DNA of 64,000 nucleotides, taken from assembly GCF_025790165.1 (NCBI RefSeq), contig NZ_CP094970.1, positions 868,001 to 932,000 of the forward strand, read 5' to 3'. Below are positions 24,538-63,211 of the stretch, piece by piece. The translations under genes and the position numbers were made by a program. Every line of letters starts with the position of its first letter. The first letter of the stretch is position 1. This DNA is from Solicola gregarius (GTDB lineage Bacteria > Actinomycetota > Actinomycetes > Propionibacteriales > Nocardioidaceae). Below the pieces are notes generated by a model. It made no database searches and was not told the DNA's origin. It saw nothing but the letters and a program-made list of their open reading frames with translations.

Positions 24538-25095
24538 GTGGAGACCTTGCAGCCCAAGGATGCGTCCCGGCTCGGCATGTCGAAGAGTTCCCTCTACCGG
24601 GCGGCACATGCCGGGGAGTACGACCGGATCGCGCGCGGCATCTACCGGCCCGCTGATGCTCCGGCCGCCGACTGGGACTGGATCGAGGCGGCAACCCGCC
24701 GCCCCGACGCGACGATCTGTCTAACATCCGCGCTGGCCTACCACGACCTGACCGACACCATCCCCGACGCTCTCGACATTGCAATACCCAGAGGAGCGCG
24801 CATCCCCGCGACGGGCGCCGCGATCGCCTGGCACTCGTTCGCCAAGGACACATTCGACCTCGGCCGCGACACCATCCCGATCCCCGGTTCGGAACTTCGC
24901 ATCGGAATCTACTCCCCGGAGCGCACCATCGCAGACGCCTTCCGTCTCCGCGGCGACCTCGGCTACGAACTCGGCCGAGACGCACTCCGTGAATGGCTAC
25001 GCCACGGCGGCAAACCCGCCCAGCTCATCGCCATCGCCACCCGCCTCCCCCGCACCAAGCAGCCGATCCTCCAAGCCCTGGACCTGCTGACATGA
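24538..25095 (+). CDS. abiEi: AbiEi-like antitoxin/repressor
   Basis: The protein has 185 residues from a GTG, with ACGGAGG upstream. The N-terminal winged helix KDASRLGMSKSSLYRAAHAG with RIARGIYRPADA is the AbiEi antitoxin domain. The C-terminal domain has ICLTSALAYHDLTDTIPDAL and YSPERTIADAFRLRGDLGYE, as in the family. It represses the operon and neutralises AbiEii without stable contact (type IV toxin-antitoxin logic). The stop overlaps the abiEii start (ATGA). Confidence 0.87.
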   Translation: METLQPKDASRLGMSKSSLYRAAHAGEYDRIARGIYRPADAPAADWDWIEAATRRPDATICLTSALAYHDLTDTIPDALDIAIPRGARIPATGAAIAWHSFAKDTFDLGRDTIPIPGSELRIGIYSPERTIADAFRLRGDLGYELGRDALREWLRHGGKPAQLIAIATRLPRTKQPILQALDLLT

Positions 25096-25970
25096 CCGAC
25101 GGTGACCGAGTCTTCCGCCAGATACAGAACCGGGCACGCTCAGACGGTGCAAGGGAGGGCAGGCCCACCCCGACCGCCGAATACCTCACCCGGCATGCGC
25201 TCGAATCGTTCCTCGACCGACTAACCCGTACCGAACACGCCACCAAGTTCGTCTTGAAGGGCGGCATCCTGCTCGCCGTCTACGGTATCCGCCGCCCGAC
25301 CAGAGACGTTGACGCCGAAGCGATCAACATGGCCGCCACTCCGGCGCTCATCTCCGACATCGTGCGTGACGTCGCGGCCGTCGAGGTCGCAGATGGAGTC
25401 TGGTTCGACCTGGCCACGACAAGCGTGCAGGAGATTCGCGACGAGTCCACATACCCGGGCCTGCGGATGCGAGTTGTATCGCACATCGGGCCACAGAAGG
25501 TCGTGACTGCCTGGGACGTCTCCACGGGCGACCCGATCATCCCGCCGCCGGGAAGGGTGCGGGTTCCGCGCATCCTCGGCGAGGACATCGAGATCCTCGG
25601 CTACACACCCGAGACAGCCGTCGCCGAGAAGGGCGTCACCATCCTGGAACGCGGTATCACCAGCACCCGATGGCGCGACTACATCGACATCGTCCAACTG
25701 GCCGAACATCACCACATCGACGAGGACCAGCTCTTCGAGTCCGCTCAGGCCGTCGCCCGCTATCGCGGCATCGAACTCGGCCCCATCACACCCGTGACCG
25801 CAGGCTACGGCGCCGTCGGCCAAACCAAGTGGGCCGCATGGAGACGCAAACACGGTCTGGAAGACATCAGCGAAGCAGCCCTTGACACGCAGATGACCAA
25901 GGTCGCCCAAGTACTCGACCCCGCGTTCTCACAGGCCGACACCGATGGCGATGCGCAGGCACCCCCGTAG
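25092..25970 (+). CDS. abiEii: AbiEii nucleotidyltransferase toxin
   Basis: The 292-residue protein has the AbiEii motifs KFVLKGGILLAVYGI (Lys56-Gly57-Gly58) and RPTRDVDAEA (Asp72, Asp74), then a long alpha/beta body containing ARYRGIELGPITP and a basic C-terminus. AbiEii uses GTP-type nucleotidyltransfer to arrest cells and block phage growth. Its ATG overlaps the abiEi stop. Key residues are intact. Confidence 0.87.
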   Translation: MTDGDRVFRQIQNRARSDGAREGRPTPTAEYLTRHALESFLDRLTRTEHATKFVLKGGILLAVYGIRRPTRDVDAEAINMAATPALISDIVRDVAAVEVADGVWFDLATTSVQEIRDESTYPGLRMRVVSHIGPQKVVTAWDVSTGDPIIPPPGRVRVPRILGEDIEILGYTPETAVAEKGVTILERGITSTRWRDYIDIVQLAEHHHIDEDQLFESAQAVARYRGIELGPITPVTAGYGAVGQTKWAAWRRKHGLEDISEAALDTQMTKVAQVLDPAFSQADTDGDAQAPP

Positions 25971-26122
25971 AACGGAACCAACACCACCCGTGTCTCGCTC
26001 ACGCTGCTGTTCGCAGCAGCCACGCGAAATACAGGACAGGCCATCTGATAGGGGTGGTGCCCCACACCGCCCAGATAGACGCAGTGTCCGAGCACGCGCG
26101 TGGCGCCACGCGCTCACGCTTC

Positions 26123-26164
26123 GCTGCGACGGACGCGTAGGACGCTGCGACGGACGCGTAGGAC
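26123..26164. repeat. Two tandem 21-bp repeats
   Basis: GCTGCGACGGACGCGTAGGA plus C occurs exactly twice end to end (26123-26143 and 26144-26164), 30 bp before the RT N-terminal fragment. The unit contains ACGCGT. It may be a small iteron-like or promoter-proximal repeat; nothing else in 25971-26194 is gene-like. Confidence 0.7.
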
Positions 26165-34288: not shown

Positions 34289-34568
34289 GCCATCTAGACC
34301 GGCCTCGACGCGGAAACTCATCGGTCGACCGTCCGATCCCGTTTCCCGCGTCTCCATCCGGTGTCGCGACATTGCGCCGCGTGGCAGGCACGTCCGGGCT
34401 GCCGAGCGGCCGCCGCGCGGTTTCGAGATGGCACAGCTAGGTGCCGGCTCGCGGGCACATGGGGCAGGCACGGGTATGCACCGCACGGTTGCCTGGCACC
34501 GACGCGGTTGAACTCCCGAGGCCTGTTACCGCCGCCGAGTGCGCAAGAGGCACCTAGACTCGGTTAGC

Positions 34569-35423
34569 GTGAGCAGCACAGACAATAGGCCGACCGAAAC
34601 GGCCCCCGGGGGTCCCAACGACGAGTTTGCGGCGAACGTACTCGACCAGATGAGGACTGTCTTCTGGGAGCCCGAGGTCGCGCGGCGCGGCGGCGAGTCT
34701 GTCACTGGACCGGTCCTACGTGCGCTGGCGGTACTCCATCCGGGCCAGCCGGTCGAGGTGCGGTTCAATAACGAGTTCGAGTTGATGGCACGCTCGCGGG
34801 TCGGCTCTCCGGTTCAACCTGGAGACGCGGTCGAGGTCGCCAACGTCGAGGACGTCGAAGCGCTCGAGCCCGTCGGCGTTGACCCTAATGCTGGATGGGT
34901 CGTCTGGGTCGTTCTCCCCGACGGCCGCGAGTATGCGCAGTTCGACTTCACCCGCAACCGCGGCCGCAGCCTGAAGATGCTCCGCCTCGCCGACGATTAC
35001 CTGACCACCGCTCAGCGTGCGCTGGAGGCCGGCTACATCGGTCCTTCCGTTGAGAACGCGTTAGCTGCTGCAGAACTGGCCATCACAGCACAGACCTACT
35101 CGTTAGCTACGGAAGAGCCGCCAATGGGTGGGCGCCGCAATTCACACTCAGCGCGCCAGCATTGGACGAAAGTCCAGGTCGGCCTCGGCAACACCACGCC
35201 TGATGCACACGAGACGCTGATCGTTCTGAATGGACTGCGAGGAGCGAGTAGGTACGGAGAGGGTGACATCCCGTCCGCCGAACGCGCTGCGAGCTTGGTT
35301 GCCACGGTCAGGAGCATGGTGGAGGACGCGGAGACCCGCGTCGGTCAGCTGATGCGAACGCAGGACCCGGAGTTCCTGGACATGATCGCCGGCCGCGGCT
35401 ACACGGCAGGAGAAGCGCCGTGA
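34569..35423 (+). CDS. Hypothetical cytoplasmic protein, helical C-terminal domain
   Basis: This 284-residue protein starts at GTG 34569 (ORF open from 34539). The N-terminal half looks like mixed beta strands (PVEVRFNNEFELMARSRVGS, WVVWVVLPDGREYAQFDFTR). The C-terminal half is helical with NALAAAELAITAQTYSLA and ASRYGEGDIPSAERAASLVA, vaguely HEPN-like but without a clear RxxxxH. Its stop overlaps the GTG of the GNAT gene, so the two are coupled. No family is recognised. Confidence 0.65.
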   Translation: MSSTDNRPTETAPGGPNDEFAANVLDQMRTVFWEPEVARRGGESVTGPVLRALAVLHPGQPVEVRFNNEFELMARSRVGSPVQPGDAVEVANVEDVEALEPVGVDPNAGWVVWVVLPDGREYAQFDFTRNRGRSLKMLRLADDYLTTAQRALEAGYIGPSVENALAAAELAITAQTYSLATEEPPMGGRRNSHSARQHWTKVQVGLGNTTPDAHETLIVLNGLRGASRYGEGDIPSAERAASLVATVRSMVEDAETRVGQLMRTQDPEFLDMIAGRGYTAGEAP

Positions 35424-35971
35424 CTAAAGACTCTGCTGCCGAAGGACCGGATGGGGAAGCTTGTGACTGCGCGGGGTCGACGGGCGGCCTCGAGTATCGA
35501 CTTGCGACCGACCGCTCTCTGCTCCAACCGCTCCGCGACCTGCTCCTGCAGATCGAGGCTGAGGGCGACATCGGCATCTCCGCGGAGAAGGAGGTTGCCT
35601 ACTTCGGTCGCGGCACTGGCGCCTACTTCGCCGTCGCCGATAGCACAGATCAGGTTGTCGGCTACCTCAGCGGCACACGAAGGAATGGCAACGCAGGTGA
35701 CCACGCGGTCGATGATGGCGCGGTCGTCGCCTTCATTCACATGCTCGCCGTCGGTCAAGCTCGCCGGGGCCGCGGAGTCGGCTTCCGAGCCGTTCAGCTG
35801 TTCGCAGAGCATGCAAGAGAGGTCGAGAGTGCAAGCCTCCTCGCGCTCCAGTTGGATGATGGAGGCGACTTTGACCTGCGGCGGGCACGGTTCGAGAGGA
35901 TGGGCTTTTGCTTTGAGGAGCTAGTTGGGCTCGTAAACATCGACGAGCTCCTCGGTCTCGGCTTCAGTTAG
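35420..35971 (+). CDS. GNAT family N-acetyltransferase
   Basis: The protein has 183 residues. The acetyl-CoA pyrophosphate loop is RRGRGVGFRAVQLFAEHA, preceded by the strand VVAFIHMLAVGQA and followed by SLLALQLDDGGDFDLRRARF and ERMGFCFEELVG, the usual GNAT C-terminal strand-helix. The substrate is unknown. The start overlaps the upstream hypothetical gene by 4 bp (GTGA), so they form an operon. Confidence 0.8.
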   Translation: MTKDSAAEGPDGEACDCAGSTGGLEYRLATDRSLLQPLRDLLLQIEAEGDIGISAEKEVAYFGRGTGAYFAVADSTDQVVGYLSGTRRNGNAGDHAVDDGAVVAFIHMLAVGQARRGRGVGFRAVQLFAEHAREVESASLLALQLDDGGDFDLRRARFERMGFCFEELVGLVNIDELLGLGFS

Positions 35972-36653
35972 ATGGCATCTCCCATGGCGTCTTGACCTGA
36001 CCATAGATCCGGATCTGCCGAGACGAAAGTGCGTCTTTCCGCCGCGTGTGCAGTGACAACGAACGCGTCGCCATCACCGCTCGAGCGAGACGATCCACGC
36101 ACCTTGGTTCCATTCACTTCGAGCCGCGCACCTCGGACCAGCTGCTCGCCTGACTGCGTACGCGGATCAAGATCAGCGAGCGACTCAACAGCTCCGATGC
36201 CAAGGCAGACCGGCCCAAGGCAAGGACGCACTCGGCGCGTGCCGCACTCTGCGAGCGGTCAACACCCCGCATCTCGTACGGCTTCGCGAAGTACCGCGAC
36301 GACGAGCGAACATCCGTCGGGCCGCCGAGGCGATCGAGGTCCAAAGGGTCCACGCCGCGAGGCCACATCGCTCCGCCTCGCTGCCGGAGCGGCAGAGGCA
36401 ATGCGGCGGCCCGCCCCTACGTTCGCGGCACTCGCCATCGCAGCTATGAGACCGGCGCCTCTCGTACGGGTGCGCCTCGACGTGCGGCTAGACCACGGCT
36501 TGCGCGCGGTCGACCGGTCCACTCTCTGACCTCGGAGTGATGCAAAAAGTGATGCAAACAATCGTGGAGACGCTGATCTAGCCCGTTTCTTGGTGAACCG
36601 ATTTGGCCACGAGCGGCCCTAAATTGCAGAGATCTTGACCTATCGAGCCCAAC
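35972..36653. other. Degenerate stretch with AGTGATGCAAA repeats
   Basis: No intact gene. On the minus strand around 35970-36090 a frame ending DAFVVTAHAAERRTFVSADP and DLWSGQ is reminiscent of a PIN-domain C-terminus, too short to call. Two AGTGATGCAAA copies lie at 36536-36546 and 36548-36558. The remainder looks like decayed island DNA. Confidence 0.35.
36536..36558. repeat. AGTGATGCAAA direct repeats
   Basis: Two copies of AGTGATGCAAA with 12-base spacing (36536 and 36548). A third AGTGATGCAA is at 36880-36889, forming GCATCA/TGATGC (36864-36869/36882-36887) just upstream of the integrase remnant. They bracket the DUF255 fragment and may be recombinase arm sites or traces of an att site. 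Confidence 0.5.
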
Positions 36654-36842
36654 CTACCGGAGCGGCCATGCCACGTGGCACCAGTGGCACGCGGCGTACC
36701 CGACACTGAGCAGGATCGGGACGTCGCGGCTACGCGCGGCCTCGAACGCTTCGTCGCCCCACTCGTACCAGTCGACGGGGTTGTCGGCATGTTGCAGCAG
36801 GTACGGGCTGGTCGCGCTCGCGAGCCGATTCACCATCGACAA
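36654..36842 (-). pseudogene. DUF255/YyaL-type thioredoxin-fold protein, N-terminal fragment
   Basis: The fragment reads [20 protein letters not shown] and [20 protein letters not shown], then [14 protein letters not shown], the highly conserved start of the DUF255 family, where CxxC belongs to the thioredoxin fold. After CHWCHV the homology stops (AWPLR, stop). The normal protein is over 600 residues, so only the first tenth remains. The break may mark an insertion or deletion junction. Confidence 0.85.
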
Positions 36843-36972
36843 GACTCCGATCCGGTGATGGTCGCATCAATCCGCCTGGAGTGATGCAATAAATTGATCC
36901 AACCTATGATCCTGTGCTGCATCTGAAGGCGCTGTTCTGCTTCCAGCGACTCAAGCCTAGAGGTCAGAAAAC

Positions 36973-37193
36973 ATGGCCACCCGGCGGAAGTCCACGCTGC
37001 TCGCGCAGGGCAGGGAGCGTCGGTTCGATGACGCCCGCTGGCCGTGGCGCGTCCGCCTCTACGCTCCCCCGCCGGCGGCACCACCTATCAGGTGTACTTC
37101 AAGGTTCCCGCGGGCGACGGCGAGCCCTGGAAGACCGCGGTCGCCGGTGACACGCGCGGCTTCGGTGCAGCGGACCTTCGCGAGCCTCAGTGA
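36973..37193 (+). pseudogene. Phage-type integrase, N-terminal remnant with frameshift
   Basis: From ATG 36973: RRKSTLLAQGRERRFDDARW and PWRVRLYAP in one frame, then in another frame GGTTYQVYFKVPAGDGEPWK and TAVAGDTRGFG. This is the start of a familiar actinobacterial integrase type whose N-terminal arm-binding domain begins this way. The catalytic domain is absent. Confidence 0.75.
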
Positions 37194-37674
37194 CACGCCG
37201 ACCGGCGTTCTCACCATGTACTGTCCCGACCAACCGGCGGGCTCGCCACTATCGTGAGGCTGTCCGTCCTCAGCCCGAGCGCCCTCGCCAATCAAACGCG
37301 CCGATCACCGACACTGTCTGCGAAGAAGGGTTTGAGCTCTGCATCGCGACCGCCTTGCCGACCGCGAAGGGCACCAAGGTTGGCGCGGGAGGTGACAATG
37401 CCATAGCACGCTCTTCGCGCTCCTCTTACGTGTTTGGACTCCTCAAAGCCACACCATCGGCCAAAAGACACAGGATCAGCCTGCTCCCGGTGCTGAGGCG
37501 GGCAACCCTAACCATCCAGGGCTGCCAGTAAGCGCGACCTCGAAGTCGCGCTGGCCGCTGCGGCCGATGGCCATGCTCGCGGCGTGCGGCCAGCGCCACC
37601 TGTTTGACCCTGGGGACACGGCGTTGTTCGCCGAGGACCTGGCCCTCGTCGAACAACGCCGTGGCTACCGGGTA
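37194..37674. other. Gene-free stretch with a hairpin
   Basis: No gene I can support. A hairpin of 8 bp with a 6-base loop (AGCGCGAC-CTCGAA-GTCGCGCT) lies at 37531-37552, about 120 bp past the stop of the convergent secreted protein gene (37675), where it could terminate transcription. Confidence 0.4.
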
Positions 37675-38064
37675 TCAGCCGTCGAGTGGGTACACCCACG
37701 GGGCACAGCCGACGTTGGCCTCACAAGTGCGGAACTTGTAGACGTCGCTCGGGAGGAAGCCCGTGCCACCTCCACCACGGTTGCACCCGTCCCAATCCGT
37801 TACCGACCGCGGCGTGCTGGTGGAGTTCATAAGACGGTAATCCACGGAGACGTAATTCCCGTCGCACTCCATGTCGAAGACGTTGGCGTTGTCATGTTCG
37901 TAGCTCACCGACGTGAAGTCGCTGCCGTGATAGCTGTACGTCCAGTGGGCGGCCGCCTCGCCGGCGGTACCGATTGTCAGGGCGCCGACCATCGATGCCA
38001 CGCCTAGCGCTGCAACCGTTCCTCGCCTGTGTGATCTGCCTGCCCCTGCCTGTGGATCCATCAA
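37675..38064 (-). CDS. Small secreted protein, unknown function
   Basis: The 129-residue product has a signal peptide: HRRGTVAALGVASMVGALTI with cleavage at EAAAH. The mature domain is rich in Tyr/Asp/Ser with four Cys (VFDMECDGNYVSVDYRLMNS, WDGCNRGGGGTG, FRTCEANVGCAPWVYPLDG). The pattern suggests a disulfide-stabilised exported protein of the kind many actinomycetes secrete. An AAGGAGA site lies before the ATG. The 308 bases to 38372 hold no gene I can see. Confidence 0.7.
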   Translation of the reverse strand: MMDPQAGAGRSHRRGTVAALGVASMVGALTIGTAGEAAAHWTYSYHGSDFTSVSYEHDNANVFDMECDGNYVSVDYRLMNSTSTPRSVTDWDGCNRGGGGTGFLPSDVYKFRTCEANVGCAPWVYPLDG

Positions 38065-41789: not shown

Positions 41790-42034
41790 GCCGCAAGTCT
41801 GACACGAAGCAGGACTACGAATACGCGCCGTCGTAGACCGAGACGGACTCATCCGTCCCGAGTGAGCCCTACCGTAGGCGGTTGGGTTTGCGTAACGACC
41901 GTGCTATGTCTCGATGGGCGAGTAGGGACCAGTCTCCGCACGCTGACATCCCGTCTCCCAGAGACTCTGCACCCGACAATGACAGCAGCGCACGCGGACC
42001 ATGGCGCTACCGATGCGCGTCAGCGCTGTCCCTG

Positions 42035-42092
42035 CCCCTCACCCGATTTCGCGGTGCTCGACGCCCCTCACCCGATTTCGCGGTGCTCGACG
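42035..42092. repeat. Two exact tandem 29-bp repeats
   Basis: CCCCTCACCCGATTTCGCGG plus TGCTCGACG occurs at 42035-42063 and again at 42064-42092 without a mismatch. It lies in the non-coding stretch 41853-42107 upstream of the SARP regulator. No function is evident. Confidence 0.75.
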
Positions 42093-42107
42093 CCTTCAGC
42101 TGTTCGA

Positions 42108-42500
42108 TCACCTGTATTGAGACTTGGTCTCGGTGGCAAGGCCTCGTGTGAGGAGGCGTCGGGGGCCGGGTCCGACATCTCCGAGCCGGTCGTTGGTGTT
42201 GCGCCGAGCGCAGGCATCGATCGACAGGCAGCCGAATCCGATGCAGTCAGTCAGTCGATCTCGCGGGCGCACGAGCTGATCGATCCCCGCATCGAGTTCT
42301 GCACGCCAGCCCGCCGAGAGATGTTCCCAGTCGTCACATGTTGGAGTGCGCTCGTCGGGCAGGCCCGGCAACGCATCTGCGACGCTACGCGGCGGGATGC
42401 CGACAGGCTGTGCGGCCTGGATGACAGCGATGCGTCTTACGACATCCCGCGCATAACGACGCTGGTCATCGGCGGTACCGAGCAGCGGCCACGCCGACAC
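42108..42500 (-). pseudogene. SoxR/MerR-type regulator, 5'-truncated
   Basis: The frame reads QRRYARDVVRRIAVIQAAQP, then ADALPGLPDERTPTCDDWEH and LSAGWRAELDAGIDQLVRPR, then DCIGFGCLSIDACARRN and GDVGPGPRRLL. This is the C-terminal two thirds of SoxR. The first helix-turn-helix (before QRRYARD) is not recognisable. The iron-sulfur site CxGCxC has lost one cysteine (CIGFGC). It cannot act as a SoxR. Confidence 0.75.
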
Positions 42501-42689
42501 CGCGACGGGCGCGTCTTGCTCAGCGCCGGTAGTCGGGCCACGATTCTGGGGGATCGGGATCGAACACCGGTCACCGGCCGCCCTAGCGTCAGCGCCGTGC
42601 CCGGTTGGCGCGATCATCGGCGGACCCGGAGATGGCCGCGGCGATCCATCATCCTCAGAATACTTGACGTAAGCAGATATACAGGGCGT

Positions 42690-42788
42690 ATGACCGACGG
42701 CGAGACCAACCTCGCTGACCTCGCGTCCACTGTCGGATTCAGCGACCAACCTCACCTCACTTGGATCATGCGGGACGAAGCGGGGTAG
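42690..42788 (+). pseudogene. AraC-family C-terminal fragment
   Basis: The 32-codon frame NLADLASTVGFSDQPHLTWI plus MRDEAG matches the second helix-turn-helix of AraC proteins (LAxxxGFSDQxHLxRxxR). The rest of the gene is absent and the frame stops before the usual final helix. The stretch 42789-43033 holds no gene I can see. Confidence 0.65.
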
Positions 42789-44868: not shown

Positions 44869-45453
44869 ATGACGAAGCTGGGAGACGAACGACGGACAGG
44901 GGTGCTCCGAACTGCGGTGCACGCCGCATCGATCGAGGGGCTCGAGGGGCTCACGCTCGGGCGCCTAGCTGTGGTCAGCGGAGTCCCCAAGAGCGCACTT
45001 CAGGCCCTGTTCGGCACGAAGGAGAGTCTCCAATTGGCCATCGTCGCCTACGCAGTCGACATCTTCCAGCACGAGGTCCTGACCCCTTCCGCGGATGTAC
45101 CCGACGGGCTCGCCCGCCTGCGCGTCGTCATGGAGTCCTGGATCGACTACCTGATCATCTTCGACGGCGGATGCCTCTTCGTCGCCAGCGCCAGCGAGCT
45201 CGACGGCCGCCCGGGCCCGACACGCGACGCCATCACCGACGCCGTCGTCAGCGGCGAGAGTCTCCTGGTGCGCCAAACGGACCTCGCCCAACGACTCGGC
45301 GAACTACCCACCGAGCCCGACCCCGAACAGGTCGCCTTCGAGCTTCACGCCGTACTACTAAAAGCCAACCACGATCGACAACTCCTAGCCCGCGATGACG
45401 CCCTCAACCGCGCCCGCACCGCCCTCGACCGCATCCTGCCACCCGCCCCCTAA
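44869..45453 (+). CDS. TetR family transcriptional regulator
   Basis: The protein has 194 residues from ATG 44869 (an upstream in-frame ATG at 44848 lies in the operator). The helix-turn-helix is GVLRTAVHAASIEGLEGLTL and GRLAVVSGVPKSALQALFGT. The C-terminal domain contains SWIDYLIIFDGGCLFVASAS. The -10 box lies 9 bases before the start, suggesting a leaderless mRNA. A 120-bp near-copy of codons from this gene occurs at 47312. Confidence 0.85.
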   Translation: MTKLGDERRTGVLRTAVHAASIEGLEGLTLGRLAVVSGVPKSALQALFGTKESLQLAIVAYAVDIFQHEVLTPSADVPDGLARLRVVMESWIDYLIIFDGGCLFVASASELDGRPGPTRDAITDAVVSGESLLVRQTDLAQRLGELPTEPDPEQVAFELHAVLLKANHDRQLLARDDALNRARTALDRILPPAP

Positions 45454-46972: not shown

Positions 46973-47300
46973 TCACTCGCGTGGCCACGAGGAAACTAGT
47001 GGCCGTCCGACCATGCTGCTTGCGACCGCGCAGAACTCGTTGTCCTCCGGATCGGCAAGCACCGTCCGCCCACCTTCGGAGTCAGCCTCCCGCAGCAAGG
47101 TGGCGCCTTTCGCAATCAGCGAGGGGACGTCACCGCAAACAACGTCGAGATGAATGCGGTTCTTATACGTGAACCCTGGTGCGTCGTGGCCGACGCGGGC
47201 GCCCAATGCATCGCCCACGAAGTGGCGATTGAAGTCGGATCGGCACAGTCAATGATGAGTTCGTAGAGGCAGTGCGGCGGCACTTGGTCACGCTCGAAAC
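46973..47300 (-). pseudogene. VOC/glyoxalase-like protein with frameshift
   Basis: One frame (about 47300-47225) gives RDQVPPHCLYELIIDCADPT and SIAT; after a one-base shift another gives VGDALGARVGHDAPGFTYKN, RIHLDVVCGDVPSLIAKGAT and LLREADSEGGRTVLADPEDN plus EFCAV. The two together make one vicinal oxygen chelate domain. The shift near 47220 breaks it. Confidence 0.75.
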
Positions 47301-47311
47301 GCAGAGCTCGC

Positions 47312-47431
47312 CGCCAGCGAGCTCGACGGCCGCCCGGGCCCGACACACGACGCCATCACCGAGGCCGACGTCAGCGGCGAGAGTCTCCCGGTGCGCCAAA
47401 CGGTCCTCGCCCAGCGACTCGGCGAACTACC
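47312..47431 (+). repeat. Diverged partial copy of the TetR gene
   Basis: This 120-bp stretch matches 45189-45308 inside the TetR gene with roughly nine in ten bases equal, in the same orientation (for example GCGAGCTCGACGGCCGCCCG in both). It starts right next to the 5' end of the VOC remnant and shows no protein context of its own. Confidence 0.8.
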
Positions 47432-47461
47432 TGGCTTTGATCCCGGTTGGTGGACACAGGG

Positions 47462-47590
47462 TTATGCGTCGTTCTGATCTGCCGCGGTCTGAGTGCCTTG
47501 TTGTATCTCGACTGCCACGGGGCTGGCCTGGCCGATCGAGGAGCGCCTCCGGCGGCAGTTGTAGCGGTCCTCGATCCAGGCACCGACGTC
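47462..47590 (-). pseudogene. IS3-type transposase C-terminal remnant
   Basis: The frame DVGAWIEDRYNCRRRRSSIG then QASPVAVEIQQG resembles the end of IS3-family OrfB integrases (YNxxRRHSSLGxxSPxxFE). Catalytic residues before it are missing. It lies just downstream of the ArsR gene, and was probably left by a decayed element. Confidence 0.6.
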
Positions 47591-47731
47591 CTGACGAGAC
47601 GCTTGAAGCTGGACTGTGAGTGCAGCGGATGGGTGCGCCGCGCTCGGTCTCTCTTCGTGTTTGTCGGAGTCAACACGGCCGGCGCACACGGCGAGGCGCC
47701 CGGATTGGGTCGCCACTTGCGTCTTGAGGTT

Positions 47732-48031
47732 TCAGACCTGACCGAGTATGACCTGGGCTTCCGCGATGCCGGCCTCGTTGCGCCGGTGGAATGTGCGTTG
47801 TCCGATCCTTTCGGTGGTGATGAGCCCGGCCGCCCGCAGGATGTCGAGGTGGCGAGTGGCGGTGGGTTGCGAGATGCCCACTGTTGCCGCGATAAGTGAG
47901 ACGCAGGCTCCAGCCTCGCCGAGGTCGCCCTCTCGCTGCGAGGCCAACCGCTTCGATGGTTCGCGCAGCAGTTCAAGGATCGTCAGTCTAGTTTCGGATG
48001 CTAGGGCTCGGGCTACCTCGTGGACGCGCAT
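47732..48031 (-). CDS. ArsR family winged-helix regulator
   Basis: The protein has 99 residues. The ArsR core ALASETRLTILELLREPSKR, then CVSLIAATVGISQPTATRHL and DILRAAGLITTERIGQRTFH, is complete. No metal-binding cysteine pair is evident (one Cys before the recognition helix), so a small-molecule or redox signal is as likely as a metal. It is divergent from the amidase gene at 48093 and probably controls that cluster. Confidence 0.87.
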   Translation of the reverse strand: MRVHEVARALASETRLTILELLREPSKRLASQREGDLGEAGACVSLIAATVGISQPTATRHLDILRAAGLITTERIGQRTFHRRNEAGIAEAQVILGQV

Positions 48032-48039
48032 ACAAGAAA

Positions 48040-48073
48040 CATAGCCGCATAGACATATAGCGAAATAGCTATG
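48040..48073. promoter_or_regulatory. ATAG-rich imperfect palindrome between ArsR and amidase genes
   Basis: The region begins CATAGC and ends GCTATG, with several more ATAG words between. It lies 9-20 bases from both gene starts (48031 and 48093). AT-rich dyads of this size are typical of ArsR operators. Confidence 0.5.
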
Positions 48074-48092
48074 CCCGTGTTAGCGTCCCGGC

Positions 48093-49428
48093 ATGCATGT
48101 CGCCCGCGTCGCACCACTGCTCTCCACGTTGCGCGCAAACGACGGCCCCGATGCCTTCGTGACTGTGACAACTGAGCGTGCAATCAGTGAGGCCCGAGCA
48201 CTGGACGCGCGCGAGCAGCGGGCGTCGCAACATTTGCTGCTATCTGGCCGAACGGTCGCCTTCAAGGACGTCGTTCCACTGCATGGCAGCCCGACGCGTG
48301 CCGGAACCAAGTTCATCCGAGGCTCCACCGAAGAGGCTGATCACACGATCGTGCGGATCCTTCGTCGGCACGGCGCGATCTGCGTGGGTAAGACTGCGAT
48401 GAGCGAGCTCGGAGTATCGGTGCTAGGTGAGAACGAGATCTTGCCGGCGCCAACAAATCCCTTCGACGAACACCGCGTTTGCGGTGGATCGTCATCTGGA
48501 GCTGCGGCTGGAGTTGCGGCGGGCCTGATCGATCTCGGTGTCGGTACCGACAGCGGCGGCTCGGTTCGTCTGCCGGCCGCGTGGTGTGGAGTCGTTGGTT
48601 ACAAACCCACACGCGACCTCATCGCGCAAAGAGGCCTGATTACGTTCTCGCCCACTCTGGACTCGGTCGGTTTGGTCGCACGGACTGTGCGGGATGTCCG
48701 GCTCGGGGCGTCAGCACTTCTGAGGCAGACTGCGACTGCAGCATCCGATGGCGCCGTCACCATCCTATTCTCCCGAGCCTACTTCGAGCCCGTCGATCCA
48801 TCCGCGCTGGCGGTCTATGACCGCGCGGTGAGCGTCCTGAAGGTTCACCTGCCGACTGACCCGACCACCTGTCCCGATCCGTTCAGTGGTCTGGAGCGCT
48901 TTCGGCGTCGTCACGGCTCGACCGCTGCCGACGAGGGGTGGGACCTGTGGCGAGATCCGGTCATGGCGGCCGGGGACCTGGCATCACCTCGCCTCCGCCG
49001 GTGGTTCACCAACCACAACCCGAGTGGCCGTGTCGCTCGCCGACGTCGCTCGGCCGTGCGCCAGCGACTGATGGCACGGTTCGCGTCGATTGTCCCCACC
49101 GGCCGTGTGCCAGCGACTGATGGCACGGTTCGCGTCGATTGTCCCCACCGGCCGTGTGCTGGTGACGCCGACGAGCCTTACCGAGCCGCCGAGGTTCGAC
49201 GACCTGCACGGCGCCAGGTACGACGAGCTGTACCGAGAAGCCCACCGCATGCTGTGGGCCCTCAACGAACTCGACGGCCCAGCGATCACGGTGCCATGCG
49301 GCTTCACCGATTCAGGACTCCCCGTGGGCCTGCAGCTCTGCGCCCCATCCGGGCGCGATGCGGACGTCCTCAGCGCAGCCGAGCGCGTCGAGAACGTGCT
49401 CACGGAGCAGCACGTTCCAACTCACTGA
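48093..49428 (+). pseudogene. Amidase gene interrupted by a 49-bp tandem duplication
   Basis: Amidase-signature enzymes hydrolyse C-N amide bonds with a Lys-cisSer-Ser triad. Here the triad is visible: Lys in TVAFKDVVPLHG, Ser in VCGGSSSGAAAGVAAGL and Ser in GVGTDSGGSVRLPAAWCG. In-frame sense runs to about 49108. An exact second copy of 49 bases (49109-49157) shifts the frame by one. The C-terminus (ALNELDGPAITVPCGFTDSG and LPVGLQLCAPSGRDADVLSA) then continues in the other frame to a stop at 49426-49428. Deleting one copy restores a complete amidase. As it stands the first frame reads through into the next gene. Confidence 0.88.
49060..49157. repeat. Exact 49-bp tandem duplication
   Basis: The unit begins GCCAGCGACTGATGGCACGG and ends CCACCGGCCGTGT; copies lie at 49060-49108 and 49109-49157 with no mismatch. 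CGGCCGTG also precedes the first copy. Because 49 is not a multiple of three, the copy number sets the amidase reading frame. Confidence 0.97.
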
Positions 49429-49439
49429 CAAGGATGCCC

Positions 49440-50459
49440 ATGGCCGATCAGATCGAGCTGGCGCTCCATAGCTACAGCCGCCGCCTGCGCTTCGTTCACG
49501 ATCCCGACTACGATGTCTTCACCTTCATCGACGAGGCCGCACGCCGCGGTTTCGCAGGCGTCAATATCAGTCTTTCCGGGCCAGACAATGCCCACCTGCC
49601 ACCACACCGCCACCTTGGCGGGAACACACCGGCCCACCTCTCCGCCGTCGCCGACGCACTCCGCAGCCGGGGCATGTCCGTTGAAGTCGACACCGACACC
49701 GTCCAACCAGACCGCCTCCAGACCGCCATCACCATCGCCGGGGCGCTGGGAGCCCGCGTACTACGGACGTTCACCCACCACTGCGAACCGGATGTGTTGG
49801 CCAAGACCACGCACGAGCTGGCGCTCTCCCGTCTCGCCGCTGAAGCAGCCGACGTCGTCGTCGCAGTCGAGAACCATGAGGAGTTCACCTCGGCCGAACT
49901 CGTCCGACTTGTCGAAAATGTCGACAGCCCCCACGTCCGGCTGCTATTCGACTACGGCAACAGCCTCCCCGTGCTCGAGCCGCCTGCCGTAGCGCTCGCA
50001 TCGATGCTGCCCTACGTCGTCGCCTGCCACCTCAAGGACGTCGCGATGATCTCCGCCGACGACAGTCCGGACAGCGTGCCAGCGACGATGGGTGTTCCCC
50101 TCGGGCACGGACACATCCCCGTGGAATCCCTGACCAGGACGCTCGTCACCGGCCGCATCCGGCGCCTAGCACTCCAGAACGTGTGGGGATATCACGTGCC
50201 CCTGGGCAAACTCCGCCCCATCGACCCGAACGACCCGCGACTTGGCGAAGGCGACTTCGCCTACATTCGCCCCCCGTTCTCACCGCCGATCGTCTGCTTC
50301 CACCCCGAGAGCGTATACACGCCGGAACAGTTGATGGCTCTCGAGGACCACGCACTCGACGTCGCGACCCGCAATGCCATCACCCTGTGCCAACGCATCA
50401 CCGGAGGCCGACCAAGCCCCGATGAGCCGGTATCAGGCAACCGAGGAGCACGATCGTGA
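49440..50459 (+). CDS. Sugar phosphate isomerase/epimerase (TIM-barrel, xylose isomerase-like)
   Basis: The product is 339 residues from ATG 49440, with ACAAGG 6 bases before. The barrel pattern includes FTFIDEAARRGFAGVNISL, RSRGMSVEVDTDTVQPDRLQ, AAEAADVVVAVENHEEFTSA, LLFDYGNSLPVLEPPAVAL and PYVVACHLKDVAMISADDSP, with Glu/Asp/His positions as in the metal site of this superfamily. Because of the duplication upstream, the same frame is open from the amidase start, but a fusion is not likely to be functional. The stop overlaps the next gene's GTG. Confidence 0.87.
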   Translation: MADQIELALHSYSRRLRFVHDPDYDVFTFIDEAARRGFAGVNISLSGPDNAHLPPHRHLGGNTPAHLSAVADALRSRGMSVEVDTDTVQPDRLQTAITIAGALGARVLRTFTHHCEPDVLAKTTHELALSRLAAEAADVVVAVENHEEFTSAELVRLVENVDSPHVRLLFDYGNSLPVLEPPAVALASMLPYVVACHLKDVAMISADDSPDSVPATMGVPLGHGHIPVESLTRTLVTGRIRRLALQNVWGYHVPLGKLRPIDPNDPRLGEGDFAYIRPPFSPPIVCFHPESVYTPEQLMALEDHALDVATRNAITLCQRITGGRPSPDEPVSGNRGARS

Positions 50460-51790
50460 CTACACACAAGACCTGCGACGCCTGGACCGGACCGGACAAT
50501 CACGGCACCTATCAACGTCGTTCCCTGCGCAAGGGTCACCACCGCCGCTGCCTGGGGGCACGGGCTCGACGGCTATGACCTTGGCGTGCTGAGCGTCGCG
50601 TTGCCGGCCATCGCCCTCGAAGCTAAAGTCCTCCGCGTTCGAGCTCGGGCTGCTGGGTGCATCGTCGCTGATCGCTACCTTTATCGGAGGACTCGCCTTC
50701 GGCTGGCTGACTGCCAAGATCGGCCGCCGCGTCACGTTCTCCACTCGTGTTCATCGCTGTCATCGCCACATGGGTCGCCCAACTATCGACGGTCACCTTC
50801 GCGCTGCTATTCCTCGCCCGCCTGGGCAGCGGCTTCGCTATCGGGGCGGAGCACACCGTCGGAGAACCGATGCTCGCCGAGTTCTCTCCCTCCCGCGGCG
50901 AGGCCGTCGCATCTCGTTTGCTCAGGTCTGCTGAACCTCGACAACCTTCTCGCGGTGATCAGCGGGTACGCCCTCCTGGAATGGGGCCGATGTGCACTGG
51001 CGCGGTACTCGCCAGCGCCGCCATCCCAGCCCTCGTCGGTCTGCGGCTTCGACGCAACATCGCAGAATCGCCCCTGGCTCGCGCGGCAAGGTCACCAAAC
51101 GGAGGCTCGCCGCATTTCCGATACCTACCTCGGCGCGACCTCCTTCGACCAAGGGGCACTGGGCGCCGAGAACCGGGCGATCGACAGCAACTGGTCCTCA
51201 CTGTTTCGCGGACAACAGCGGCAACGCGCCGTCTTCGAGGCCGTGATGTACCTGTTCCTGGTCATCTCCTACTTCGCGATCTTCACCTTCGCGCCGACCG
51301 TCCTGAGCACCATGGGCGTCTCCAATGTCGTTGCCGGCACCATCGCCCTCAACGCCATCGCACAATCGGCACCGTCGCAGGCAGACTATGCGTGGACTCG
51401 CTCGGACGTCGACGCCTCCTCATCGGCCCGTTCACGGCGAGCATCGCCGCATTCATCGCCCTCGCGGCCTTCGGCGGCGATTCCGCTCCGATCGTGACCG
51501 TCTGCTTCATCGTCTTCGCCTTCCTCAGCTCCGCCGCCTGCGTCCTCATCCCGTCTACCCGGGTGAACCTGTTTCCACCTCCTTGCGCTCGACCGGAGCC
51601 GGCCTCTTCACCGCTATCAGCCGAGTCGGAGCGGCTCTCGGAACGTTCCTAATCCCGGCAACTATCACTGGACTCGGCATCGCAAGCGTCATGGTCGTTG
51701 GCGCCGTCGTCTGCGTCATCGGCCTTGCCGATACCTACACGTGGGCGCGGCCGGGCGATCGTCCGGGATCAGCGCCGGCTCGACGCGGGC
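50456..51790 (+). pseudogene. MFS (sugar/acid symporter-like) transporter with many frameshifts
   Basis: Pieces of one transporter appear in shifting frames: AWGHGLDGYDLGVLSVALPA, then LIATFIGGLAFGWLTAKIGR, FALLFLARLGSGFAIGAEHT, AVMYLFLVISYFAIFTFAPT, FTASIAAFIALAAFGGDSAP and GAGLFTAISRVGAALGTFLI. The RIG-x-R loop and the later FTAISR/GAALGTF block are MFS metabolite:H+ symporter landmarks. At least five frame changes are needed. The GTG start overlaps the isomerase stop, so it was the third gene of the amidase operon. Confidence 0.8.
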
Positions 51791-51898
51791 GGCAGCGCGG
51801 CTGGACGATCCCGCGCGCGATGCCGGCGCGGGCGTCGGCGACGCCGTGGGCATGGTGTACGTGTTGAGAGTGCCGCGGCCGGCCAAATCGAGGATCGG

Positions 51899-52013
51899 CG
51901 ACCGTACTGGAGCGCAAAGGGTTCATCAAGATCGGCAAGGAGACCTCGTGGGCCGCCTGCGCCGGCAAGGACGTGCTCGAGCACATCTACCGCCTCGACT
52001 TGTCACCTCATCG
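51899..52013 (+). pseudogene. GNAT-like C-terminal remnant
   Basis: The frame TVLERKGFIKIGKETSWAAC then KDVLEHIYRLDL matches the last strand-helix of GNAT acetyltransferases (VLEKxGFxxxGxE). No start or acetyl-CoA loop is present. It lies between the decayed MFS gene and the convergent MFS exporter. Confidence 0.4.
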
Positions 52014-52116
52014 AGCCCGACACCGGAGGAACCCTTGCGGTATTCCTCCGGTGCGGGGCGGTGATGGCTCGGGACATTACCGCTCGAGTCCCGGTTACTG
52101 GCTACCGGGCCTGCGC

Positions 52117-53349
52117 TCAACGATGGCCCTCTTGTACGGGCGAATGACGTCGCGTGGCGGCCGGTGACCGGAATCGGTGTCCGACAACCAGTGCTGGCAG
52201 CAGGGTGATCGCGGCCAGCACGGCGGCCACGGCGAAGCCTGTGGTGATCGACCTGGCGTTGGCGATGGGCCCGAGGAGCAGTGGTGCGGCCGCTTGCCCG
52301 ACGAACGTCGAAGAGGCTGACAGCGCTGTCGCCCTTCCCCTGAGTGATACAGGGGCACCTTCGGCGATCAGGACCGTGAGCGCAGGCACGGCGAGCCCCA
52401 TGCCGGTGCCGAACAGCGCAGCGGCGGCTCCGAGGAGAATGGGGTGCGGGATGATGCTCAGGCCAGCGAGCGCGAGGATCCAGATGGCGAAGGACAGCTT
52501 CAGTAGAGCGCGGTCGCCGAGCCATGCGCGCAGTGGGGCGTAGCCCAGACCGACGGCGGTCATACTCGCCGACAGTGCCACGGCGTGAAGGGCTACGTAA
52601 CGGGGATCGGTGACGCCGAGCTCGGCGAGGCGCATGGGCAGGAGTATCAGCACCGCGTAGAGCAGGACGGCACTGATGAGCTGCATCGCGTAAAAGCCAA
52701 GCAGATCGGGGCGTCGGCGTGCGAGGTCTCGGACCCGACTGCTGGGCGGTGCGGTCTCGGCAACCTCAGCTGTCGCGGAGATTCTGGTACGCCGGGTGGG
52801 CACCACGGTGATGCACGCGACGGCGAGCGGTACGCCGAGCAGATAGAGGGCGAACGGCGCGTGCCAGGAGATGGTGCCGAGCAGGCCACCGAGCAGCGGC
52901 CATCCGAGTCCGCCGAGGCTGATGGCTGAAGACCGCCAGCCCATGACCCGGTCCCTCCCGCGTCCGTCGTGCAACTCGAAGAGCGCAACGGTAGTGGCCA
53001 CGAACACCGCCGCCGCACCGACGCCAAAGACTAGACGGCTTGTCAACAGCCACCCGTAGCTCTCGGTCATCATCCCGGCGCCCCCGGAGATCCCGTACAG
53101 CAGGAGCCCCCACGCCAGTGCCAGCCGGACCCCCCAGCGGTCGATTGCCCGACCCACGAAAGGTGCGACGACCGCCAGCGAGAACCCGTGCAGGGTCAGC
53201 ACGAGCCCCGCTCGGGTCTCGGTGAGTGCGAGGTCCCGGCGGATCAGTTCGAGCACCGGTGAGAGGATCGCCCCAGCCATCACGGTCAGGGTCGAGGCCG
53301 CCAGCAGCGCGGCCAGCGTCACCCGGGTGCGCCCGCCGGCGCTGCTCAT
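52117..53349 (-). CDS. MFS exporter (drug/metabolite type)
   Basis: The protein has 410 residues from ATG 53349, overlapping the upstream reductase stop (ATGA); the frame is open 11 codons earlier. Twelve hydrophobic segments are visible. The family motif PFVGRAIDRWGVRLALAWGL (motif A-like, G-x-x-x-D-R-W-G-x-R) follows helix 2, and LLTSRLVFGVGAAAVFVATT is helix 4-5. A charged linker (TRRTRISATAEVAE) marks the centre. It is co-expressed with the FMN reductase, and MarR is divergent. Confidence 0.87.
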   Translation of the reverse strand: MSSAGGRTRVTLAALLAASTLTVMAGAILSPVLELIRRDLALTETRAGLVLTLHGFSLAVVAPFVGRAIDRWGVRLALAWGLLLYGISGGAGMMTESYGWLLTSRLVFGVGAAAVFVATTVALFELHDGRGRDRVMGWRSSAISLGGLGWPLLGGLLGTISWHAPFALYLLGVPLAVACITVVPTRRTRISATAEVAETAPPSSRVRDLARRRPDLLGFYAMQLISAVLLYAVLILLPMRLAELGVTDPRYVALHAVALSASMTAVGLGYAPLRAWLGDRALLKLSFAIWILALAGLSIIPHPILLGAAAALFGTGMGLAVPALTVLIAEGAPVSLRGRATALSASSTFVGQAAAPLLLGPIANARSITTGFAVAAVLAAITLLPALVVGHRFRSPAATRRHSPVQEGHR

Positions 53350-61744: not shown

Positions 61745-63211
61745 TCAGCGGGGTCTGGGTTTGGGGACCGTGGGCGACGACCGAGCGACGATCGGCCAAC
61801 GACGCGACGGTCGCAGGATCCGCTCGACCGATCTGGCGAACGACAGAACGGTCGGCTCGTCGTACGGTCGGCCGACGATCTGGATGCCTAGCGGCAGTCC
61901 CGACGACGCGATGCGACCCGAAGGGACAGAGATGGCGGGAAGCCGGTTGAGGATGTTGAACGGTCGGGTCAGGTTGATGTCACTCAACGACTCGAGGCGC
62001 ATGCCGTCCACGGTCGGGAGCTCCGACAGGTAGGCCTCACCTGCCGTCAGCCCGGTGATTCCCACTGTCGGGCAGATGATGATGTCGACGCGCTCGAGCA
62101 GCTCGGCGACCTGCCGGTACATGTCGCCGGTCTCACGGTGACGGTCCTGAGGTGTGAGGTGCCGGGCCGCCTCGGTGGTCCGTTGAGCGAAGGAGCGCGC
62201 GTAGTCGGTGAGATCGTCCGAGGTCGTGGCCAGGCGAGCGATGTCGGCGGCACTGTGGTCGCCGAAGTGGGCGTCCGCCAGGCGATTGACACTCACCCGA
62301 TCCCAGCCGAGTTCGGCCGGACGCACTTCCGTCCCGGCCTCGGCGAGAGCAACACTCACCCGGGTGACGTCCGCGACGATTTCGTGGTCGACGCGCCAGT
62401 TGCCAAGGTTGGTCAGGACCGCTACGCGTACCGGCGTCGTCGGCGCCGGACGTCCGCCGATGCGTGGCAGCGAACTCATGTCGGAGCGATCCTGGCCTGC
62501 GATGATCTCGTGGAGCAGCGCGCAGTCATCGACCGTACGTGCGAGCGCTCCGTCCTGCCAGAACGGATCGAGGTTGGCGGGCGAGATCGTCGCGACTGTC
62601 CCGTAGGCCGGTTTGAAGCCGACCGTGCCGGTGAACGAGGCGGGGCTGCGTAGCGAGCCGCCGCTGTCCGAGCCGGTCGCCAGTACGGTCATCCCAGAGG
62701 CGAGCGCGGCGACCGAGCCGCCCGACGAGCCACCCGGACTCAGGTCGGGGTTCCACGGGTTTCGCGTCGTACCCCAGAGGATCGAGTGCGTGAACGGCAT
62801 GCAGCAGAACTCGGGGGTGGCCGTCCGAGCATGGATGATCCCACCGGCCGCACGGATCCGTGCGACGATCGGATGGTCGACGTCCGCAACACGGTCAGCC
62901 AGGGCGACGGACCCGTCGGCCCAGGGCCGCCCTTTCATCGGCTGCTGTGCCTTGAGCGCAACCGGAATACCTTCGAGCGGTCGAGCCGTGCCGTGCAGGT
63001 ACCGTCGCTCGGCCTGCACAGCCTGATCGAGCGCATCCTCGAAAAGGGTGTCCACGAGTGCGTTGAGCGATGGATTGATGCGCTCGCACCGCTCGATCGT
63101 CCAGCGCATGACCTCGACCGGCGAAAGCTCGCGACGGAAGAACCTCCGGACGAGGTCGACTGCCGACAGGAGCGTCAGATCGGCGCCATCATCTCGGTGC
63201 AGCGAAGGCAC
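61745..63211 (-). CDS. Amidase (amidase signature family)
   Basis: The protein has 488 residues. The triad is visible: Lys in LEGIPVALKAQQPMKG, Ser in DLSPGGSSGGSVAALASG and Ser in LATGSDSGGSLRSPASF with GTVGFKPAYGTV after it. The C-terminal VDIIICPTVGITGL and LPLGIQIVGRPYDEPTVLSF complete the fold. It leads the minus-strand transport and catabolic operon and may hydrolyse the amide taken up by the transporter. Confidence 0.93.
   Translation of the reverse strand: MPSLHRDDGADLTLLSAVDLVRRFFRRELSPVEVMRWTIERCERINPSLNALVDTLFEDALDQAVQAERRYLHGTARPLEGIPVALKAQQPMKGRPWADGSVALADRVADVDHPIVARIRAAGGIIHARTATPEFCCMPFTHSILWGTTRNPWNPDLSPGGSSGGSVAALASGMTVLATGSDSGGSLRSPASFTGTVGFKPAYGTVATISPANLDPFWQDGALARTVDDCALLHEIIAGQDRSDMSSLPRIGGRPAPTTPVRVAVLTNLGNWRVDHEIVADVTRVSVALAEAGTEVRPAELGWDRVSVNRLADAHFGDHSAADIARLATTSDDLTDYARSFAQRTTEAARHLTPQDRHRETGDMYRQVAELLERVDIIICPTVGITGLTAGEAYLSELPTVDGMRLESLSDINLTRPFNILNRLPAISVPSGRIASSGLPLGIQIVGRPYDEPTVLSFARSVERILRPSRRWPIVARSSPTVPKPRPR

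Follow-up and report, generated by a model that had tools for sequence, protein, structure and literature searches.

The window analyzed here, a stretch of 64,000 nucleotides from Solicola gregarius, contains an amidase gene that is interrupted by a 49-bp tandem duplication, and we asked whether this duplication serves as a switch for the gene or is simply a mutation that broke it. The earlier note had suggested a crude on/off switch and had named a fresh inactivating mutation as the alternative. The best explanation for the locus as a whole, to which we assign a probability of about 0.85, is a spontaneous slippage duplication that left the amidase very probably inactive, in a lineage-specific accessory cluster that was already decaying.

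We started with the repeat itself, which consists of the following two features.

49060-49108, plus strand: first copy of the 49-bp unit, identical to 49109-49157
49109-49157, plus strand: second copy of the 49-bp unit, identical to 49060-49108

Sequence comparison and Tandem Repeats Finder agreed that 49060-49157 is occupied by two perfect copies, as had been claimed. The identical 49-mers were arranged head to tail inside the amidase gene, the period-49 match reached its maximal extent at 49060-49159, and Tandem Repeats Finder reported 49051-49159 as an array with a period of 49, 2.2 copies, and 98% matches. The array was not a product of chance because five first-order Markov simulations of the window yielded no perfect tandem repeat with a period of at least 10. 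The lack of mismatches had also been read as a sign that the duplication is recent or maintained. The zero mismatch count was correct, but it is only weakly informative about age because 49 matching site pairs still allow several per cent divergence; in addition, tandem copies can be homogenized, which weakens identity as an age indicator. The duplication is probably recent.

About ten perfect tandem duplications with a period of at least 20 were present in 464 kb of the genome (20 sampled 20-kb stretches plus the window, with these duplications checked for overlap with open reading frames only), and on this count a genome-wide excess of gene-breaking duplications was rejected. Several of the ten belonged to one dispersed intergenic 22-bp repeat, GGCCGGGATCCTCTCCTCAGCG and its variants, which was found on contig C1 at 4266677-4266782, 1318668-1318751, and 258518-258562, for example (loci L075, L087, L106, and L107). 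The 18-bp core of this repeat matched exactly at 33 sites, counting both strands, and these formed short arrays and inverted pairs that were mostly located between large open reading frames where checked. The core had no match in the congener G001, and the reversed control pattern had none; the repeats may constitute a species-specific REP-like family. The window also contained a perfect 29-bp tandem duplication at 42034-42094, immediately past the stop of a minus-strand MerR-family gene (42108-42755) with a BTAD-type regulator gene on its other side, and a perfect 21-bp tandem duplication at 26122-26164, shortly past the end of the open reading frame at 24993-25970.

To describe the reading frame, three features are needed.

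48093-49108, plus strand: part of the amidase gene that is still in its own frame, an N-terminal portion of about 339 residues with the catalytic motifs (PF01425 profile positions 14-210, E 6e-60)
49117-49428, plus strand: stretch with the C-terminal amidase segment in its correct frame, which is not reached from 48093 (PF01425 profile positions 369-445, E 7e-11)
49440-50459, plus strand: intact xylose-isomerase-like TIM-barrel gene with an ATG at 49440, in frame with the shifted amidase frame (PF01261, E 1e-14)

Because 49 is not divisible by 3, the final fifth of the amidase (to 49428) lies in another frame. The two-copy frame departed from the amidase near residue 339 and bypassed the normal TGA (49426-49428) out of frame, and the PF01425 signature was divided, with one profile segment before the repeat and the other after it, so that no single frame contained the full-length domain. 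The one-copy reading yielded a continuous amidase of 428 residues, in line with the proposal that a single copy gives a full-length enzyme, and there was no stop and no other frameshift in the rest of the amidase or in the TIM barrel. The proposal that two copies shift the frame stood as well, with the correction that the shifted frame continues past the repeat without a stop. It ran into the next gene and thus formed one open reading frame of 788 aa at 48093-50459.

The amidase frame contained Lys58 in AFKD, GGSSSG starting at residue 131, and Ser157 in GGSVR, which by analogy with the family provide the Ser-cisSer-Lys catalytic residues. The gene therefore has its sequence family and catalytic motifs in common with the amidase signature family PF01425, but its domain is split across two frames. 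As judged from the sequence, the enzyme is very probably inactive. In the case of the TIM-barrel gene, an AAGGA at 49430-49434 is located ahead of the ATG; the TIM barrel should still be able to start alone, and hence a strong polar effect need not follow.

The borders of the unit pointed to the origin of the duplication.

49051-49061, plus strand: left border repeat, CGGCCGTGCGC, 10/11 identical to 49100-49110 and 49149-49159
49149-49159, plus strand: right border repeat, CGGCCGTGTGC, with the same sequence at the junction (49100-49110)

An 11-bp direct repeat, CGGCCGTG[C/T]GC, bordered the 49-bp unit and started at 49051 (C), 49100 (T), and 49149 (T). Replication slippage typically leaves such a border repeat as its scar, and the locus combined it with identical head-to-tail copies, as expected for a slippage-type duplication. 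This finding and the stop-free read-through into the TIM-barrel gene both go beyond the earlier note. We infer that the ancestor had one copy of the unit, with the two 10/11 identical borders placed 49 bp apart, and that the nascent strand slipped from one border onto the other, which would yield a 49-bp tandem duplication spontaneously. The border copy at the junction had the right-hand T but continued as the sequence does after the left-hand border, an arrangement that agrees with the slippage prediction.

Assemblies are known to go wrong at tandem repeats, and an assembly or sequencing artefact would mean that the true genome has one copy. We consider this very unlikely because the array is about 110 bp in all, which is below the length of one ordinary read, because the genome is one closed-looking contig that is 98.4% complete, and because the junction base is border specific, as real slippage would leave it. 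Moreover, the nearby genes were full length against Pfam, and for that reason a general indel error in the sequence was also rejected.

Comparable duplications have been described. In the penA gene of Burkholderia thailandensis, de novo duplications gave two copies of units of 9 to 60 bp, and three of these duplications had direct-repeat borders and were ascribed to slippage (PMC4169377). The amidase duplication resembles penA TR1 to TR11 in that it is a two-copy duplication in a coding gene, of 49 bp in this case, that is reversible in principle, and it resembles TR1 to TR3 in that short direct repeats are located at its borders, although the repeats here are imperfect. In contrast, the penA duplications were selected with antibiotics, altered the substrate range, and left the enzyme active (PMC4169377), whereas the amidase duplication broke the frame and has no known benefit. 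The promoter tandem repeats of Mycobacterium tuberculosis, a case of phase variation by copy number, are similar in unit size, at about 50 bp (57 bp for the dop promoter), and slippage can likewise alter how many units they have (PMC12817950). Those repeats vary across strains and within a population, whereas the repeat described here is intragenic and was seen in one genome with two copies. The duplication is a real but ordinary mutation.

To place the locus among its relatives, we searched at several levels and found no close relative of it in the sampled genus, family, or order. Specifically, DNA comparison with 294 further genomes of the family detected no orthologous locus and matched a transposase-like remnant (see below) only, and no ortholog-grade match over the amidase and TIM-barrel genes was detected in the one congener compared. 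A search of the genome contigs with the amidase returned no related locus, and across the order the variable later portion of the amidase gave marginal matches only. The closest TIM-barrel homologues were 31-42% identical and came from other classes of the phylum or from Proteobacteria, and an alignment search of the genome contigs with the TIM barrel returned two proteobacterial loci. Because no related amidase or MFS gene was found at E <= 1e-3 beside the best TIM-barrel homologues, gene order is not conserved, and these neighborhoods yielded no one-copy ortholog. Based on these comparisons, the amidase and TIM-barrel genes look lineage specific.

The intact amidases of Sinorhizobium, Pantoea, and Aminobacter aligned over the site without an insertion. 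These are distant homologues; the searches found no close ortholog. None of 35 related amidase loci, which are also distant homologues, had the repeat conserved at the same place or any perfect tandem repeat within the gene, and one had a 15-bp repeat well outside the gene. Viral contigs had no exact match to 40 bases of the 49-bp unit, and Rfam had no match in 47000-52500. The S. gregarius genome itself had about ten other amidase-family matches, including an intact, full-length paralogue at 61745-63211, and therefore the loss of this amidase may be tolerated.

The surroundings of the amidase and TIM-barrel genes contained additional damaged sequences.

50540-51747, plus strand: MFS transporter pseudogene with collinear pieces in all three frames
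47312-47431, plus strand: 120-bp segment, 95% identical to a piece of the TetR-family gene (45189-45308) and placed 2.1 kb downstream of it as a direct repeat
47432-47593, minus strand: remnant similar to the C terminus of an IS3-type (rve_3) transposase, abutting the TetR fragment

Pieces of the MFS transporter were identified via tblastn in frames 2, 3, 1, 3, and 2 within 50635-51747, a search of the S. gregarius genome recovered the same pieces, and inspection by eye added a likely piece in frame 1 ahead of the others. The transposase-like remnant showed 76-83% DNA identity to loci in relatives, and the matching open reading frame at one of them (L094) was an rve_3 protein (E 5e-14); the rve_3 match in the remnant of the window was weak (E 0.045). 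Adjoining the broken MFS end, 127 bp at 51751-51877 had 82% identity with a segment that bears no annotation in a plasmid record of Streptomyces chartreusis (NZ_CP108841.1). Elsewhere in the window, about 2.6 kb at 35423-38061, downstream of a HEPN-domain gene (34539-35423), had no open reading frame of at least 200 aa on either strand and possibly holds small or further decayed genes.

The broken MFS gene, the TetR fragment with the transposase-like remnant, and the apparently lineage-specific amidase and TIM-barrel genes favor decay over a switch. The cluster of amidase, TIM-barrel, and transporter genes would be lineage specific and perhaps laterally acquired, and the amidase loss probably cost little because the cluster was already decaying. 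Against this reading, two of the three genes in the cluster seem to have been functional until recently, and the amidase may be recoverable.

A contingency switch would require that slippage gain and lose the unit fast, with the amidase off in the two-copy state and on in the one-copy state, and that selection retain this ability. The remainder of the amidase stays open, and a perfect 49-bp two-copy repeat should contract; in penA, the reversion rates were 3.6x10^-5 for the 60-bp duplication TR11 and 9.3x10^-7 for the shorter TR10 (PMC4169377). By analogy with penA, contraction can probably occur at a measurable rate here, but revertibility is common to any such duplication and is therefore not evidence of a switch. 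Amidases are not known as typical contingency loci. Moreover, there are two copies only, and the unit should be lost far more often than it is re-formed, which would depend on slippage at the imperfect 11-bp repeat. The neighboring transporter gene is a pseudogene with multiple frameshifts, no such repeat is present in related amidases, and the repeat border is that of an ordinary slippage event. We therefore give the switch little credence. Even less credible is a particular version of it, in which living populations toggle the unit, with one copy giving an amidase and a TIM barrel as separate proteins and two copies giving the fused 788-aa frame and no working amidase; if true, this would be a duplication-based switch between a two-gene state and a one-gene state. 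The inactivating mutation that the earlier note had listed second fits better, given the broken frame, the slippage border, the decayed neighboring transporter gene, and the related amidases without the duplication.

It is most improbable that the duplication created a useful two-domain protein of 788 aa, a candidate that we rejected even though the stop-free frame reaches the TIM barrel, because the roughly 110-residue linker is amidase DNA read in an incorrect frame, the amidase lacks some of the conserved domain, G+C-rich DNA commonly has open alternative frames (the window has many overlapping open reading frames), and no fused relative was seen among the homologue neighborhoods.

The duplication leaves knowledge of phase variation unchanged. 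It appears to offer a clean natural case of gene inactivation via slippage on an imperfect 11-bp repeat. It also illustrates that a frameshift in G+C-rich DNA can join neighboring genes in one open frame rather than truncate the first of them, and automatic gene calling may present the 788-aa frame as a protein of two domains.
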